This document shows positions 59,908-63,682 of a stretch of DNA of 64,000 bases, piece after piece. This stretch comes from Jannaschia sp. M317 (GTDB taxonomy: Bacteria > Pseudomonadota > Alphaproteobacteria > Rhodobacterales > Rhodobacteraceae). Location of the stretch: the NCBI RefSeq assembly GCF_025141175.1, contig NZ_CP081155.1:3253001-3317000 (forward strand), given 5' to 3'. The number at the start of each line of letters is the position of its first letter. Position 1 is the first letter of the stretch. The notes under the pieces are model-generated. The model was not told the origin of the DNA. It ran no database searches and saw nothing but the letters and a program-made list of their open reading frames with translations. The position numbers were made by a program, and so were the translations under genes.

Positions 59908-60080
59908 GCCACCGAGCTTTGCGGCCGCAGCGCATTCCGCGTTGCGGCCGCTTTGCGTTCAGGTTTCGACCGGGTTTCAATGCCCTGTGCCCCATCCGAT
60001 GAATGTTGCAGCGCAGCACGATTGAAACGCCCCGCCCCGTCGTCTATCAATCGCGAAACATCGTTACCCAAGGGATCGAC

Positions 60081-60797
60081 ATGAAGAAGGTATATGGCTC
60101 CGCCGCCGAGGCGCTGGACGGTCTGCTCTCGGACGGGATGCTCATCGCGGCGGGTGGATTCGGGCTTTGCGGGATTCCGGAGCTTCTGCTTGAGGCGATC
60201 AAGGATGCGGGCACCAAGGACCTGACCTTCGCGTCGAACAACGCGGGCGTTGATGACTTTGGTATCGGCATCCTGCTGCAGACACGGCAGGTCAAGAAGA
60301 TGATATCGTCCTACGTGGGCGAGAATGCCGAATTCATGCGGCAGTATCTGTCCGGAGAGCTGGAGCTGGAATTCAACCCACAGGGCACCCTGGCCGAACG
60401 GATGCGCGCCGGCGGCTGCGGCATTCCCGGCTTCTACACCAAGACCGGGGTGGGCACGGTCATCGCCGATGGCAAGGAACACAAGACGTTCCCGACCGGA
60501 CCCGATGGCACCGACGAGACCTATATCCTGGAGCCCGGGATCTTTGCCGACCTGTCGATCGTCAAGGCCTGGAAGGCCGACACGACCGGCAATCTGGTGT
60601 TTCGCAAGACCGCACGAAACTTCAACCCGCCGGCGGCCATGTGTGGTAAGGTCTGCGTGGCAGAGGTGGAAGAGATCGTCCAATCCGGAGAGTTGGACGC
60701 CGACGGCATTCATCTGCCCGGCATCTACGTGCACCGCCTGATCCAGGGCGACCACGAAAAGCGGATCGAGCAGCGGACAACGCGGCCTGCTGCTTGA
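60081..60797 (+). CDS. scoA: Succinyl-CoA:3-ketoacid CoA-transferase subunit A
   Basis: A 238-residue subunit of the enzyme that moves CoA from succinyl-CoA to acetoacetate, so that ketone bodies or acetoacetate can enter the TCA cycle. MKKVYGSAAEALDGLLSDGMLIAAGGFGLCGIPE, LTFASNNAGVDDFGIGILL, and GTLAERMRAGGCGIPGFYTKTGVGT are the family motifs. ATG 60081 follows AGGGAT. Subunit B is encoded 1.1 kb further, with the LOV-kinase gene in between. Confidence 0.94.
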   Translation: MKKVYGSAAEALDGLLSDGMLIAAGGFGLCGIPELLLEAIKDAGTKDLTFASNNAGVDDFGIGILLQTRQVKKMISSYVGENAEFMRQYLSGELELEFNPQGTLAERMRAGGCGIPGFYTKTGVGTVIADGKEHKTFPTGPDGTDETYILEPGIFADLSIVKAWKADTTGNLVFRKTARNFNPPAAMCGKVCVAEVEEIVQSGELDADGIHLPGIYVHRLIQGDHEKRIEQRTTRPAA

Positions 60798-60799
60798 CG

Positions 60800-61915
60800 A
60801 TGGCGGGCGGGGCACCACATCCTGCCACGGGAGAGAGAAGGCCGGGTCCGATGGCACCGCCTACGGGCCTGTCCGGTATTGGGAGCAGAAGCGTGGACAC
60901 ACGGCGCAAGCTGGCTTCGGTCATCGATGACCAAACCGCTTTGGCGGGCTTTAGTCGTGTCCGCGTGTCGATGATCCTGACCGATCCGCGGACCAAGGAT
61001 AACCCCATCGTCTACGTCAACGCCGCCTTTGAGCGGACGACCGGCTATTCCCGGTCCGCCGTGATCGGGCGCAATTGCCGGTTTCTGCAGGGGCCGGAAA
61101 CCGACAAGGCCGACGTCGACCGCCTGCGTCATGCGATCGAGTCGGGCCGCGACGTGACCGTCGACATAACCAATTACCGCGCCGACGGAGAGCCGTTTCT
61201 GAACCGCTTGATCATCGCCCCGATTGCCGATTCAAGCGGCGACGTCATCTACTTTCTGGGCATCCAGAAAGAGGTCTATGAGACCGAGCGCGAGGAAGAC
61301 GCCGCAAACGCCCTTCTGGTAAACGTCCGCGCCCGCGTGCAGGAAGACCTGGGCCTGCTGCTGGACAGTTTCAGCCAACCCACCGACGATGCCGGCCCCA
61401 TGCCCTACGACGTGGTGAGCCGCCGTCTGGAATGCCTGCAACTCGTCTACGAAAGCATGAAGCTGTCGGATGAACAGGCGCTGCCGGGGCGTGGTATCGA
61501 CCTGGGTGCCTTGGTCAGTCGCATCGCAGCCGGGATTGCCCATGAGGCCAGCCGCTCTGGCATCCGTTACCAGCAAAGCGTGGAACCGATGGTGGTGAAC
61601 CCCGACGCGGCCGTTCGCGTCTCGATCCTGCTGTCAGAGGTGCTGGCCAACGCTTTTGCCCATGCCTTCGACCGGATGGACCAAGGCGTGGTAGAGGTGC
61701 GGATGGTGCGGCTCGCCGCCGGGGGGCTGCGCCTGACGGTCAGCGATGATGGCGTCGGTCTGCCGTCCAACACCCCCTTTCCGAACCCCGAAACCGTGGG
61801 CGGCCGCCTGATCATGACCCTGACCGACGGCCTGGATGCCACGATCAGCCCCATTCGCGGCGCGGCCGGAACGGTCGTCATGATCGATGTCCCTGCGGGT
61901 ATCACCGAGATTTAA
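60800..61915 (+). CDS. LOV-domain sensor protein with degenerate histidine-kinase half
   Basis: A 371-residue protein. The LOV domain (about 45-150) contains the photoactive motif GRNCRFLQG with the flavin-bonding Cys at 93, N-x-R-x-D-G-E/FLNRL and FLGIQKEV; so it should form the blue-light flavin-cysteinyl adduct. The C-terminal half is a HWE/HisKA_2-like kinase: an N-box LLSEVLANAFAHAF, G1 SDDGVGLP and a G2-like region. At the DHp position, where family members have HHRVKNNLQ, it reads RARVQEDLG, with no His. Kinase activity is doubtful. ATG 60800 was chosen; GTG/ATG codons further in are alternatives. It is 2 bases after scoA. Confidence 0.85.
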   Translation: MAGGAPHPATGERRPGPMAPPTGLSGIGSRSVDTRRKLASVIDDQTALAGFSRVRVSMILTDPRTKDNPIVYVNAAFERTTGYSRSAVIGRNCRFLQGPETDKADVDRLRHAIESGRDVTVDITNYRADGEPFLNRLIIAPIADSSGDVIYFLGIQKEVYETEREEDAANALLVNVRARVQEDLGLLLDSFSQPTDDAGPMPYDVVSRRLECLQLVYESMKLSDEQALPGRGIDLGALVSRIAAGIAHEASRSGIRYQQSVEPMVVNPDAAVRVSILLSEVLANAFAHAFDRMDQGVVEVRMVRLAAGGLRLTVSDDGVGLPSNTPFPNPETVGGRLIMTLTDGLDATISPIRGAAGTVVMIDVPAGITEI

Positions 61916-61933
61916 GTCACAAGGAGGCATGAG

Positions 61934-62563
61934 ATGCCCTGGGATCGCAATCAAATGGCTGCGCGCGCCGCGCAGGAGCTGCAGGACGGATGGTACGTCA
62001 ATCTGGGGATCGGCATTCCGACACTGGTGTCCAACCACATCCCCGAAGGGGTCGAGGTCACGCTGCAGTCCGAGAACGGCATGCTGGGCATGGGCCCCTT
62101 CCCCATCGAGGGCGACGAGGATGCCGACCTGATCAACGCCGGCAAGCAGACGATCACCGAACTGCCGCAGACCGCCTATTTCGACAGCGCGCAAAGCTTC
62201 GGCATGATCCGCGGCGGCAAGATCGCGATGGCAATCCTGGGCGCGATGGAAGTGGCCGAGAACGGCGACCTGGCGAACTGGATGATCCCCGGCAAGCTGG
62301 TCAAGGGCATGGGCGGGGCCATGGATCTGGTCGCGGGCGTGGGCCGCGTGGTCGTGGTCATGGACCATGCGAACAAGCACGGTCAGTCGAAGCTGCTGAA
62401 GGAATGCACGCTGCCGCTGACTGGCAAGGGCGTTGTGGACCGGATCATCACGAATCTCGGCGTGCTCGACGTGGTCGAGGGCGGCCTAAAGCTGGTGGAA
62501 CTGGCCGATGGCGTGACCGAGCAGGAACTGCGGGACGTCACCGAGGCCACGCTCGTCGCGTGA
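61934..62563 (+). CDS. scoB: Succinyl-CoA:3-ketoacid CoA-transferase subunit B
   Basis: A 209-residue subunit. The catalytic Glu is E47 in [12 protein letters not shown], and [42 protein letters not shown] is the standard start. [43 protein letters not shown] is also characteristic. An AAGGAGG lies 12 bases ahead. It is cotranscribed with scoA and the LOV gene, and its stop overlaps the GNAT gene. Confidence 0.96.
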
Positions 62564-62841
62564 GTGGCATCCACCGCGAAGACGGGCAAACCGGCGGTCG
62601 CTGGGTGATCGTCGTAAACGGGCACGAGGCGGAGATGACCTATTCCCGCCTCGGCACCACCAAGCTGATCGTCGATCATACCGACGTGCCCGAGGCCCTG
62701 CAGGGCCAGGGCGTCGGGATGATGCTGGCGGAGCGGATGATCTCGGACGCGCGGGCCGAGGGGCTGCGGGTCATCGCGCTCTGCCCATTCGTCAAGGCCC
62801 AGGCGCAGCGTCATCCCGACTGGGCGGACGTGATCGAGTGA
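62560..62841 (+). CDS. YidJ/GNAT-type small N-acetyltransferase
   Basis: A 93-residue protein of the short GNAT (CG-type) family: [73 protein letters not shown]. The acetyl-CoA loop is QGQGVG near 47-52. Substrate unknown. The start is GTG 62560, overlapping the scoB stop (GTGA), so it is probably coupled to scoB. Two palindromes follow the stop. Confidence 0.85.
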
Positions 62842-62920: not shown

Positions 62921-63682
62921 ATGAAGCATTCGCTCAATGGATACGTGATCTGCACCCTGCCGCGCAGCGGCAGTACATTGTTATGCCAATTGCTGCAGTC
63001 GGTTCCGGGGGCCGGGCAGCCCGGCTCGCATTTTCACCGCACGGACGTTGCTGCCTGGGCTGCAACGCATGGTCTGCCGCCCCTACCCATGCCCGCATCA
63101 CCTGCCGACCTGCGCCGGATCCTTGCTGCAGGTCGTCAGACAGGGTGTGATGGCGACAGTCTCTTCGGTCTGCGCCTGCAATCGCACAGCCGCGCTTACT
63201 TGCTGGAACGCCTAGCCGAGGCGCAACCGGGTCTGCCCTGCGACCGCACAAGGTTGGAGGCGACGTTTGGGCACCTCTGCTTCATCTATCTGACAAGACG
63301 TGATCACTTGGCGCAGGCGATTTCTTACGTGCGTGCGGCGCAGACGGGCCTGTGGCACCGCGCCGCCGATGGCCGCGAGATGGAACGCAGCGCGCCCCCT
63401 GCCCCGTCCCGCTATGACCGAGCGGCCATCACGGACCGTTTGCAGACAATCGCGACCGATGAGCAGCAGTGGCAGGTTTGGTTTGCGCGTCAGGGCATCG
63501 AACCATTGCGGGTCTTCTATGAGGATCTTGCCGCCGACCCGGCGCGGACTCTGGATCGAATCTTGCGCCATCTGGGTCTTGCGGGAATGTCACCGACACT
63601 CCGCATTCCTACGGCGCGCCTGGCTGACGGAACAAGCCTCGCCTGGGCGCGTCGATACCGGTCAGACGCGTCTGGCGACTAG
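62921..63682 (+). CDS. Stf0-type sulfotransferase
   Basis: A 253-residue PAPS-dependent sulfotransferase. The 5'-phosphosulfate loop is YVICTLPRSGSTLLCQLL (about 8-25). HLCFIYLTRRDHLAQAISYVRAAQTGLWHR and RVFYEDLAADPARTLDRILRHLGL are the 3'-phosphate side and the Stf0 signature. The Stf0 model enzyme sulfates trehalose in Mycobacterium, so a sugar or glycan acceptor is likely, but none is proved here. Its last bases overlap the stop of the convergent transglycosylase gene. Confidence 0.86.
   Translation: MKHSLNGYVICTLPRSGSTLLCQLLQSVPGAGQPGSHFHRTDVAAWAATHGLPPLPMPASPADLRRILAAGRQTGCDGDSLFGLRLQSHSRAYLLERLAEAQPGLPCDRTRLEATFGHLCFIYLTRRDHLAQAISYVRAAQTGLWHRAADGREMERSAPPAPSRYDRAAITDRLQTIATDEQQWQVWFARQGIEPLRVFYEDLAADPARTLDRILRHLGLAGMSPTLRIPTARLADGTSLAWARRYRSDASGD

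Follow-up and report, generated by a model that had tools for sequence, protein, structure and literature searches.

Why should a gene for a blue-light sensor lie between the two subunit genes of a 3-oxoacid CoA-transferase? This question is raised by a stretch of 64,000 nucleotides from Jannaschia sp. M317 (NZ_CP081155.1, positions 3,253,001 to 3,317,000; hereafter the window), in which a LOV/HWE-kinase-like gene is flanked by scoA and scoB (Table 1). An initial annotation, made from the sequence alone, had proposed this layout, and domain profile searches confirmed it, with TIGR02429 and TIGR02428 matching the outer genes and PAS_9 and HATPase_c_2 the middle one. Our analysis indicates that the middle gene is very likely an orthologue of ldaP, encoding a blue-light-controlled antirepressor of the repressor PpsR, and that it probably controls photosynthesis, not ketone metabolism.

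To what kind of protein does the gene give rise? Its LOV half matches PAS_9 (E 1.2e-21) and its kinase-like half HATPase_c_2 (E 1.9e-7). The photo-adduct cysteine of the LOV motif GRNCRFLQG is intact, and the kinase-like half retains both the N-box (SEVLANAFAHAF) and the G1 box (DDGVG), as first annotated. The phospho-acceptor motif is replaced, which had also been claimed. In an alignment with EL346 of Erythrobacter litoralis (PDB 4r3a; E 5.9e-68), a monomeric LOV-HWE histidine kinase, EVQHRVKNHL stands opposite NVRARVQEDL, and a MAFFT alignment with 88 relatives gave the same change of histidine to alanine; no histidine was found at the aligned position of the DHp domain. The window protein shares with EL346 the domain order, domain folds, LOV motif, N-box and G1 box, and differs from it in that the acceptor, His142 in EL346 (reported as verified, as cited in PMC10890935), has been lost along with the whole H-x-x-K-N-H motif. 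Compared with EL346-like HWE/HisKA_2 LOV kinases, it thus keeps the CA domain with N-box and G1 and lacks the acceptor, and it scores 163.8 bits against the NCBIfam equivalog NF052306 (blue-light-activated histidine kinase), whose cut-off is 450. Judged from these alignments, the protein very probably signals without histidine phosphorylation.

The initial annotation considered such a protein new, but a protein matching it in clade and genomic address was published in 2024 as a PpsR antirepressor. According to the consulted sections of PMC10890935, LdaP (Dshi_1135) of Dinoroseobacter shibae has 338 residues, GRNCRFLQ at 58-65 (Cys61) and Arg148 in place of the acceptor histidine; it undergoes a flavin mononucleotide photocycle, shows no detectable autophosphorylation, associates with PpsR chiefly in darkness, when it relieves the repression of photosynthesis genes, and an ldaP mutant is colourless, having lost its pigment. 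The function is repeated in a 2025 review (PMC12654162, consulted in part), and Dshi_1135 is mentioned once in the consulted part of PMC4335406. Among our loci, L072 lies between scoA and scoB and encodes a protein that fits LdaP in length and residue positions, from which we infer that L072 is Dshi_1135. The window protein is 51% identical to it (172/337 columns). Like LdaP, the window protein combines LOV, DHp-like and CA-like parts, carries the LOV cysteine in GRNCRFLQ, has lost the acceptor histidine from its kinase-like half and is encoded in a genome with pufLM; if L072 is Dshi_1135, the two also share the scoA-x-scoB address and a common descent apart from the intact kinases. They differ in the residue at the acceptor place (alanine in the window protein, arginine in LdaP), in sequence to the extent given above and possibly in the N-terminus, which may be longer in the window protein. 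Dikiy et al. 2023 (PMC10359499, consulted in part) noted a subgroup of EL346-like LOV histidine kinases without the acceptor histidine, which is probably the same group; the part consulted reports neither its genomic surroundings nor a function. The AppA/PpsR system of Cereibacter sphaeroides likewise has a blue-light flavoprotein as antirepressor of PpsR (consulted sections of PMC10890935), but AppA senses by a BLUF domain and the window protein by LOV.

We found that the 35 distinct proteins lacking the acceptor histidine form one clade (ultrafast bootstrap 100, SH-like approximate likelihood ratio test 97; 100% of 200 bootstrap trees). The columns of the acceptor motif were removed from this main tree, which also omits locus L108 for its long branch, three duplicates and 14 distant LOV kinases. 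In a quick tree of 89 rows, which included those 18 and left out L195-L205, the histidine state changed twice, the second time at L108. This locus (1089-2108), from a Hellea sp. metagenome-assembled genome, encodes a separate LOV-HWE protein without the acceptor histidine, with a ruined N-box and a very long branch; its histidine loss was apparently independent of the main clade. No sco genes were found within its 6.1-kb locus, and no reaction-centre gene was found in that genome.

Within the clade, the pattern of conservation bears on whether these proteins are merely decaying kinases without function. Loss of the acceptor motif would fit decay, as would loss of the N-box in one member, but Cys93, N125, N135 and Q156 (numbered on a 371-residue protein) are retained in 35/35 members, the N-box asparagine in 34/35, and D316, D317, G318 and G320 of the G1 box in all 35. 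N125, N135 and Q156 are residues that we take to be flavin contacts. When 35 rows picked as lacking the acceptor histidine were set against 36 comparison kinase rows picked as having it, the last place of H-x-x-K-N-H held aspartate in 33/35 clade rows and histidine in 36/36 kinase rows, and the lysine was present in 3/35 versus 36/36. The D. shibae member is moreover needed for pigment (consulted sections of PMC10890935). Decay is therefore strongly opposed already, and we regard it as the least credible of the explanations considered here. An alternative acceptor was also sought: between residues 165 and 269, only H248 is histidine in eight or more of the 35 clade rows (32, with tyrosine in two and serine in one); it is not part of the helix in which the acceptor stood, and this candidate was rejected. 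The clade member that has lost its N-box, L083 (genome G273, 1486-2544), still lies between scoA and scoB, and its genome has reaction-centre genes, which suggests that some members can do without binding nucleotide.

How widespread is the address between scoA and scoB? The order scoA-LOV-scoB occurs in 13/20 Jannaschia genomes and in other genera, which bears out the conservation that the initial annotation had asked about, rules out a strain-specific insertion and is far beyond chance. None of the 13 genus carriers has the acceptor histidine, its place being taken by A, S, G, T or E; in the 7/7 non-carriers, scoA and scoB are adjacent (gap -1 to 14 bases). One of these seven genomes (G011) has, apart from its adjacent scoA and scoB, an orphan scoB (L050, 90% identical) with neither scoA nor a LOV gene upstream; the idea that a LOV remnant adjoins this orphan was rejected, as just short matches were found there (E 4-6). 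A family sample of 394 genomes yielded 41 matches in 38 genomes at E <= 1e-55. Without the two genus genomes, 39 matches remain, 17 lacking the acceptor histidine and 22 having it; the sco address is occupied by 16/17 of the former and 9/22 of the latter (25/39 in total). This count does not include L197, which has scoA upstream (cut by the contig end) and no scoB in 1.5 kb downstream. Among the 35 distinct clade proteins, 33 are at the sco address, the exceptions being L073 and L095. Because intact LOV kinases share the address in other genera, it is probably older than the histidine loss, unless the gene arrived there by repeated moves. In the literature searched, to which subscription papers, supplements and figures did not belong, we found no report of the conserved sco address and, among the search results listed, no publication linking LOV proteins with CoA-transferase; nor did we meet a report of the single origin or the kept ATP pocket, neither of which was searched by name. 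Dshi_1134 and Dshi_1136 are absent from the consulted main text of PMC10890935.

The distribution of photosynthesis genes indicates what the gene is for. We scored reaction-centre genes by PF00124 and PpsR by TIGR02040 over its cut-off. In Jannaschia, both are present in 13/13 carriers versus 1/7 non-carriers; the other six non-carriers have no reaction-centre genes and no PpsR over the cut-off, yet all seven keep scoAB. The window genome holds pufLM and ppsR (PpsR at 382.8 bits, over the cut-off, and two PF00124 genes at a distance of about 5 kb). Beyond the genus and the family sample we drew on 80 named loci, of which the first 39 (L088-L126) were aligned and puf was sought in the genomes of 20. 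On this basis, puf is present in 34/35 clade genomes (13/13 genus, 17/17 family, 4/5 further named) and in 3/15 genomes in which the kinase between scoA and scoB is intact (3/9 family, 0/6 named). On an rpoB tree, LdaP and puf each change five times, and no supported independent pair runs in the opposite direction. Four genomes (G005, G010, G016 and G019) carry second PpsR-like genes of 208-249 bits, below the family cut-off, which are possible PpsR paralogues.

These data also bear on the suggestion that the light sensor is tied to ketone-body metabolism. The middle-gene product might bind ScoA or ScoB and tune ketone-body or polyhydroxybutyrate flux to light, with or without a role towards PpsR, as the widely conserved gene order, often with short gaps, and the intact kinases at the same address could be taken to mean. 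Against this stand the retention of scoAB in every genus genome without the gene, six of the seven also lacking reaction-centre genes, and the findings in D. shibae, where the pull-down table lists 15 enriched proteins besides the bait with no CoA-transferase subunit among them and the mutant phenotype is pigment loss (consulted sections of PMC10890935). We consider such an enzyme-regulating role very unlikely. Because the gene tracks reaction-centre genes and PpsR while non-carriers keep scoAB, we favour a role in photosynthesis; of the original proposal, the sensor without histidine phosphorylation is supported and the metabolic tie is not.

Several observations weigh against a PpsR antirepressor role. 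The clade descends from one event, so that 34/35 does not amount to 35 independent observations, and the independent-pairs test has only three supported pairs (p 0.25) and cannot reach significance. The two kinds of protein cannot be told apart by address alone, because three phototrophs (G197, G374 and G231) carry an intact kinase between scoA and scoB. One carrier, L092, a metagenome-assembled genome whose completeness is not known, shows no reaction-centre gene. Conversely, G012 is a genus phototroph with the highest-scoring PpsR of the genus (443 bits), adjacent scoA and scoB and no LdaP, and a clade member at the threshold of E <= 1e-55 is present in only 19/394 family genomes (17 plus the window genome, G000, and G019) versus 166/394 with reaction-centre genes over the cut-off; LdaP is only one way of regulating photosynthesis genes. 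PpsR binding, photocycle and non-phosphorylation are known from the D. shibae protein, 51% identical, and not from the window protein, and the genome of L072 (G078) is equated with D. shibae only through the published numbers. Finally, Table 2 of PMC10890935 gives more PpsR peptides in the light (7 and 7) than in the dark (1). The authors ascribe this excess to a recovery of bait that was roughly 10-fold lower in the dark, and their western blot shows PpsR mainly in the dark (same source, consulted sections).

Could the protein act elsewhere, in the general stress response? EL346, the closest solved relative, is an HWE kinase tied to that response in the consulted text of PMC10890935, and six genus carrier genomes also hold intact LOV kinases (L031-L037). 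A non-phosphorylating LOV protein might serve there as a light-dependent dominant-negative subunit, acting with intact HWE kinases or PhyR/NepR. This would leave unexplained both the co-occurrence with PpsR and puf and the interaction and phenotype in D. shibae, and we give it very little weight. As an LdaP orthologue, the window protein would bind and sequester PpsR in the dark, perhaps via the former kinase half, if the contact carries over from D. shibae, and photosynthesis promoters would thereby be freed. Blue light would form the Cys-flavin adduct implied by the retained residues and alter the kinase-like half, whereupon PpsR would be released and repression would follow. The ATP pocket is probably still in use or structurally needed, with no phosphotransfer. 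The address between scoA and scoB is probably inherited from an ancestral LOV kinase that already occupied it, and would mainly secure co-expression. It is conceivable, if unlikely, that a two-component LOV kinase was converted, in a single event, to a phosphorylation-free antirepressor with the conserved ATP pocket as a second input, releasing PpsR only when both dark and nucleotide-loaded, so that photosynthesis would be gated by light and energy state while co-expression with scoAB ties it to ketone and acetyl-CoA catabolism. Ketone metabolism may be a side link, a view supported by the address alone.

The layout of the locus is summarized in Table 1. The spacing of 18 bases between the LOV gene and scoB is as first annotated, whereas the two bases given between scoA and the LOV gene apply only if the first ATG (60800) is the start, yielding 371 residues; starting at GTG 60893, the protein has 340 residues, with the LOV cysteine at Cys62, and the gap is 95 bases. 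N-termini vary among genus members. In relatives outside the genus, the candidate start is about 60-69 residues upstream of the LOV cysteine, mostly at most ~35 bases from the scoA stop and in some cases 100-430 bases from it. Whichever start is used, co-transcription of the LOV gene with scoAB is likely. The scoB stop codon is overlapped by a small reading frame of GNAT-like type, which may belong to the operon as its fourth gene; a Stf0-type sulphotransferase gene adjoins the operon. We also scanned the window for PpsR boxes (TGT-N12-ACA, a motif taken from the consulted sections of PMC10890935). Nine were found versus 6.6 expected by shuffling, a count reached in 25/100 shuffles, and none lies at the scoA-LOV-scoB operon or anywhere in the window past 52249; autoregulation through such boxes was accordingly rejected.

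Table 1. Features of the scoA-LOV-scoB locus and its neighbours, in window positions.
Feature	Position	Strand	Remarks
scoA, 3-oxoacid CoA-transferase subunit A	60081..60797	+	TIGR02429 E 1.3e-63, 214 bits; PF01144 E 4.1e-67 (on open reading frame 60003-60797)
LdaP-like LOV gene	60893..61915	+	Pfam PAS_9 and HATPase_c_2; 340 residues from GTG 60893; start unsettled
LOV motif GRNCRFLQG	61070..61096	+	photo-adduct Cys codon 61076-61078
Former acceptor motif RARVQEDL	61328..61351	+	HRVKNHL in relatives; Ala 61331-61333 replaces His; Asp 61346-61348
N-box SEVLANAFAHAF (ATP site)	61634..61669	+	Asn at 61649-61651
G1 box DDGVG (ATP site)	61745..61759	+	D316, D317, G318, G320
scoB, 3-oxoacid CoA-transferase subunit B	61934..62563	+	TIGR02428 E 8.1e-99, 329 bits
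GNAT-like reading frame	62563-62841		PF14542, E 4.6e-25
Stf0-type sulphotransferase gene	62921-63682		PF09037, E 4.1e-71

Taken together, the locus is real, conserved and largely explained by the 2024 LdaP paper, to which our analysis adds the evolutionary context and the place between scoA and scoB. What appeared to be an oddity becomes a conserved module, and LdaP-like proteins are extended from one species to Jannaschia and another 17 genera in the family sample, with scoA-x-scoB as a gene-order signature for finding them. That the ATP pocket was retained after phosphotransfer was lost poses a testable question, and L083 offers a natural test of whether antirepression requires ATP binding. 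The acceptor histidine was lost once in this clade and the gene was then kept almost exclusively in phototrophs, a course that illustrates how a kinase sensing light could turn into an antirepressor acting by direct protein contact.
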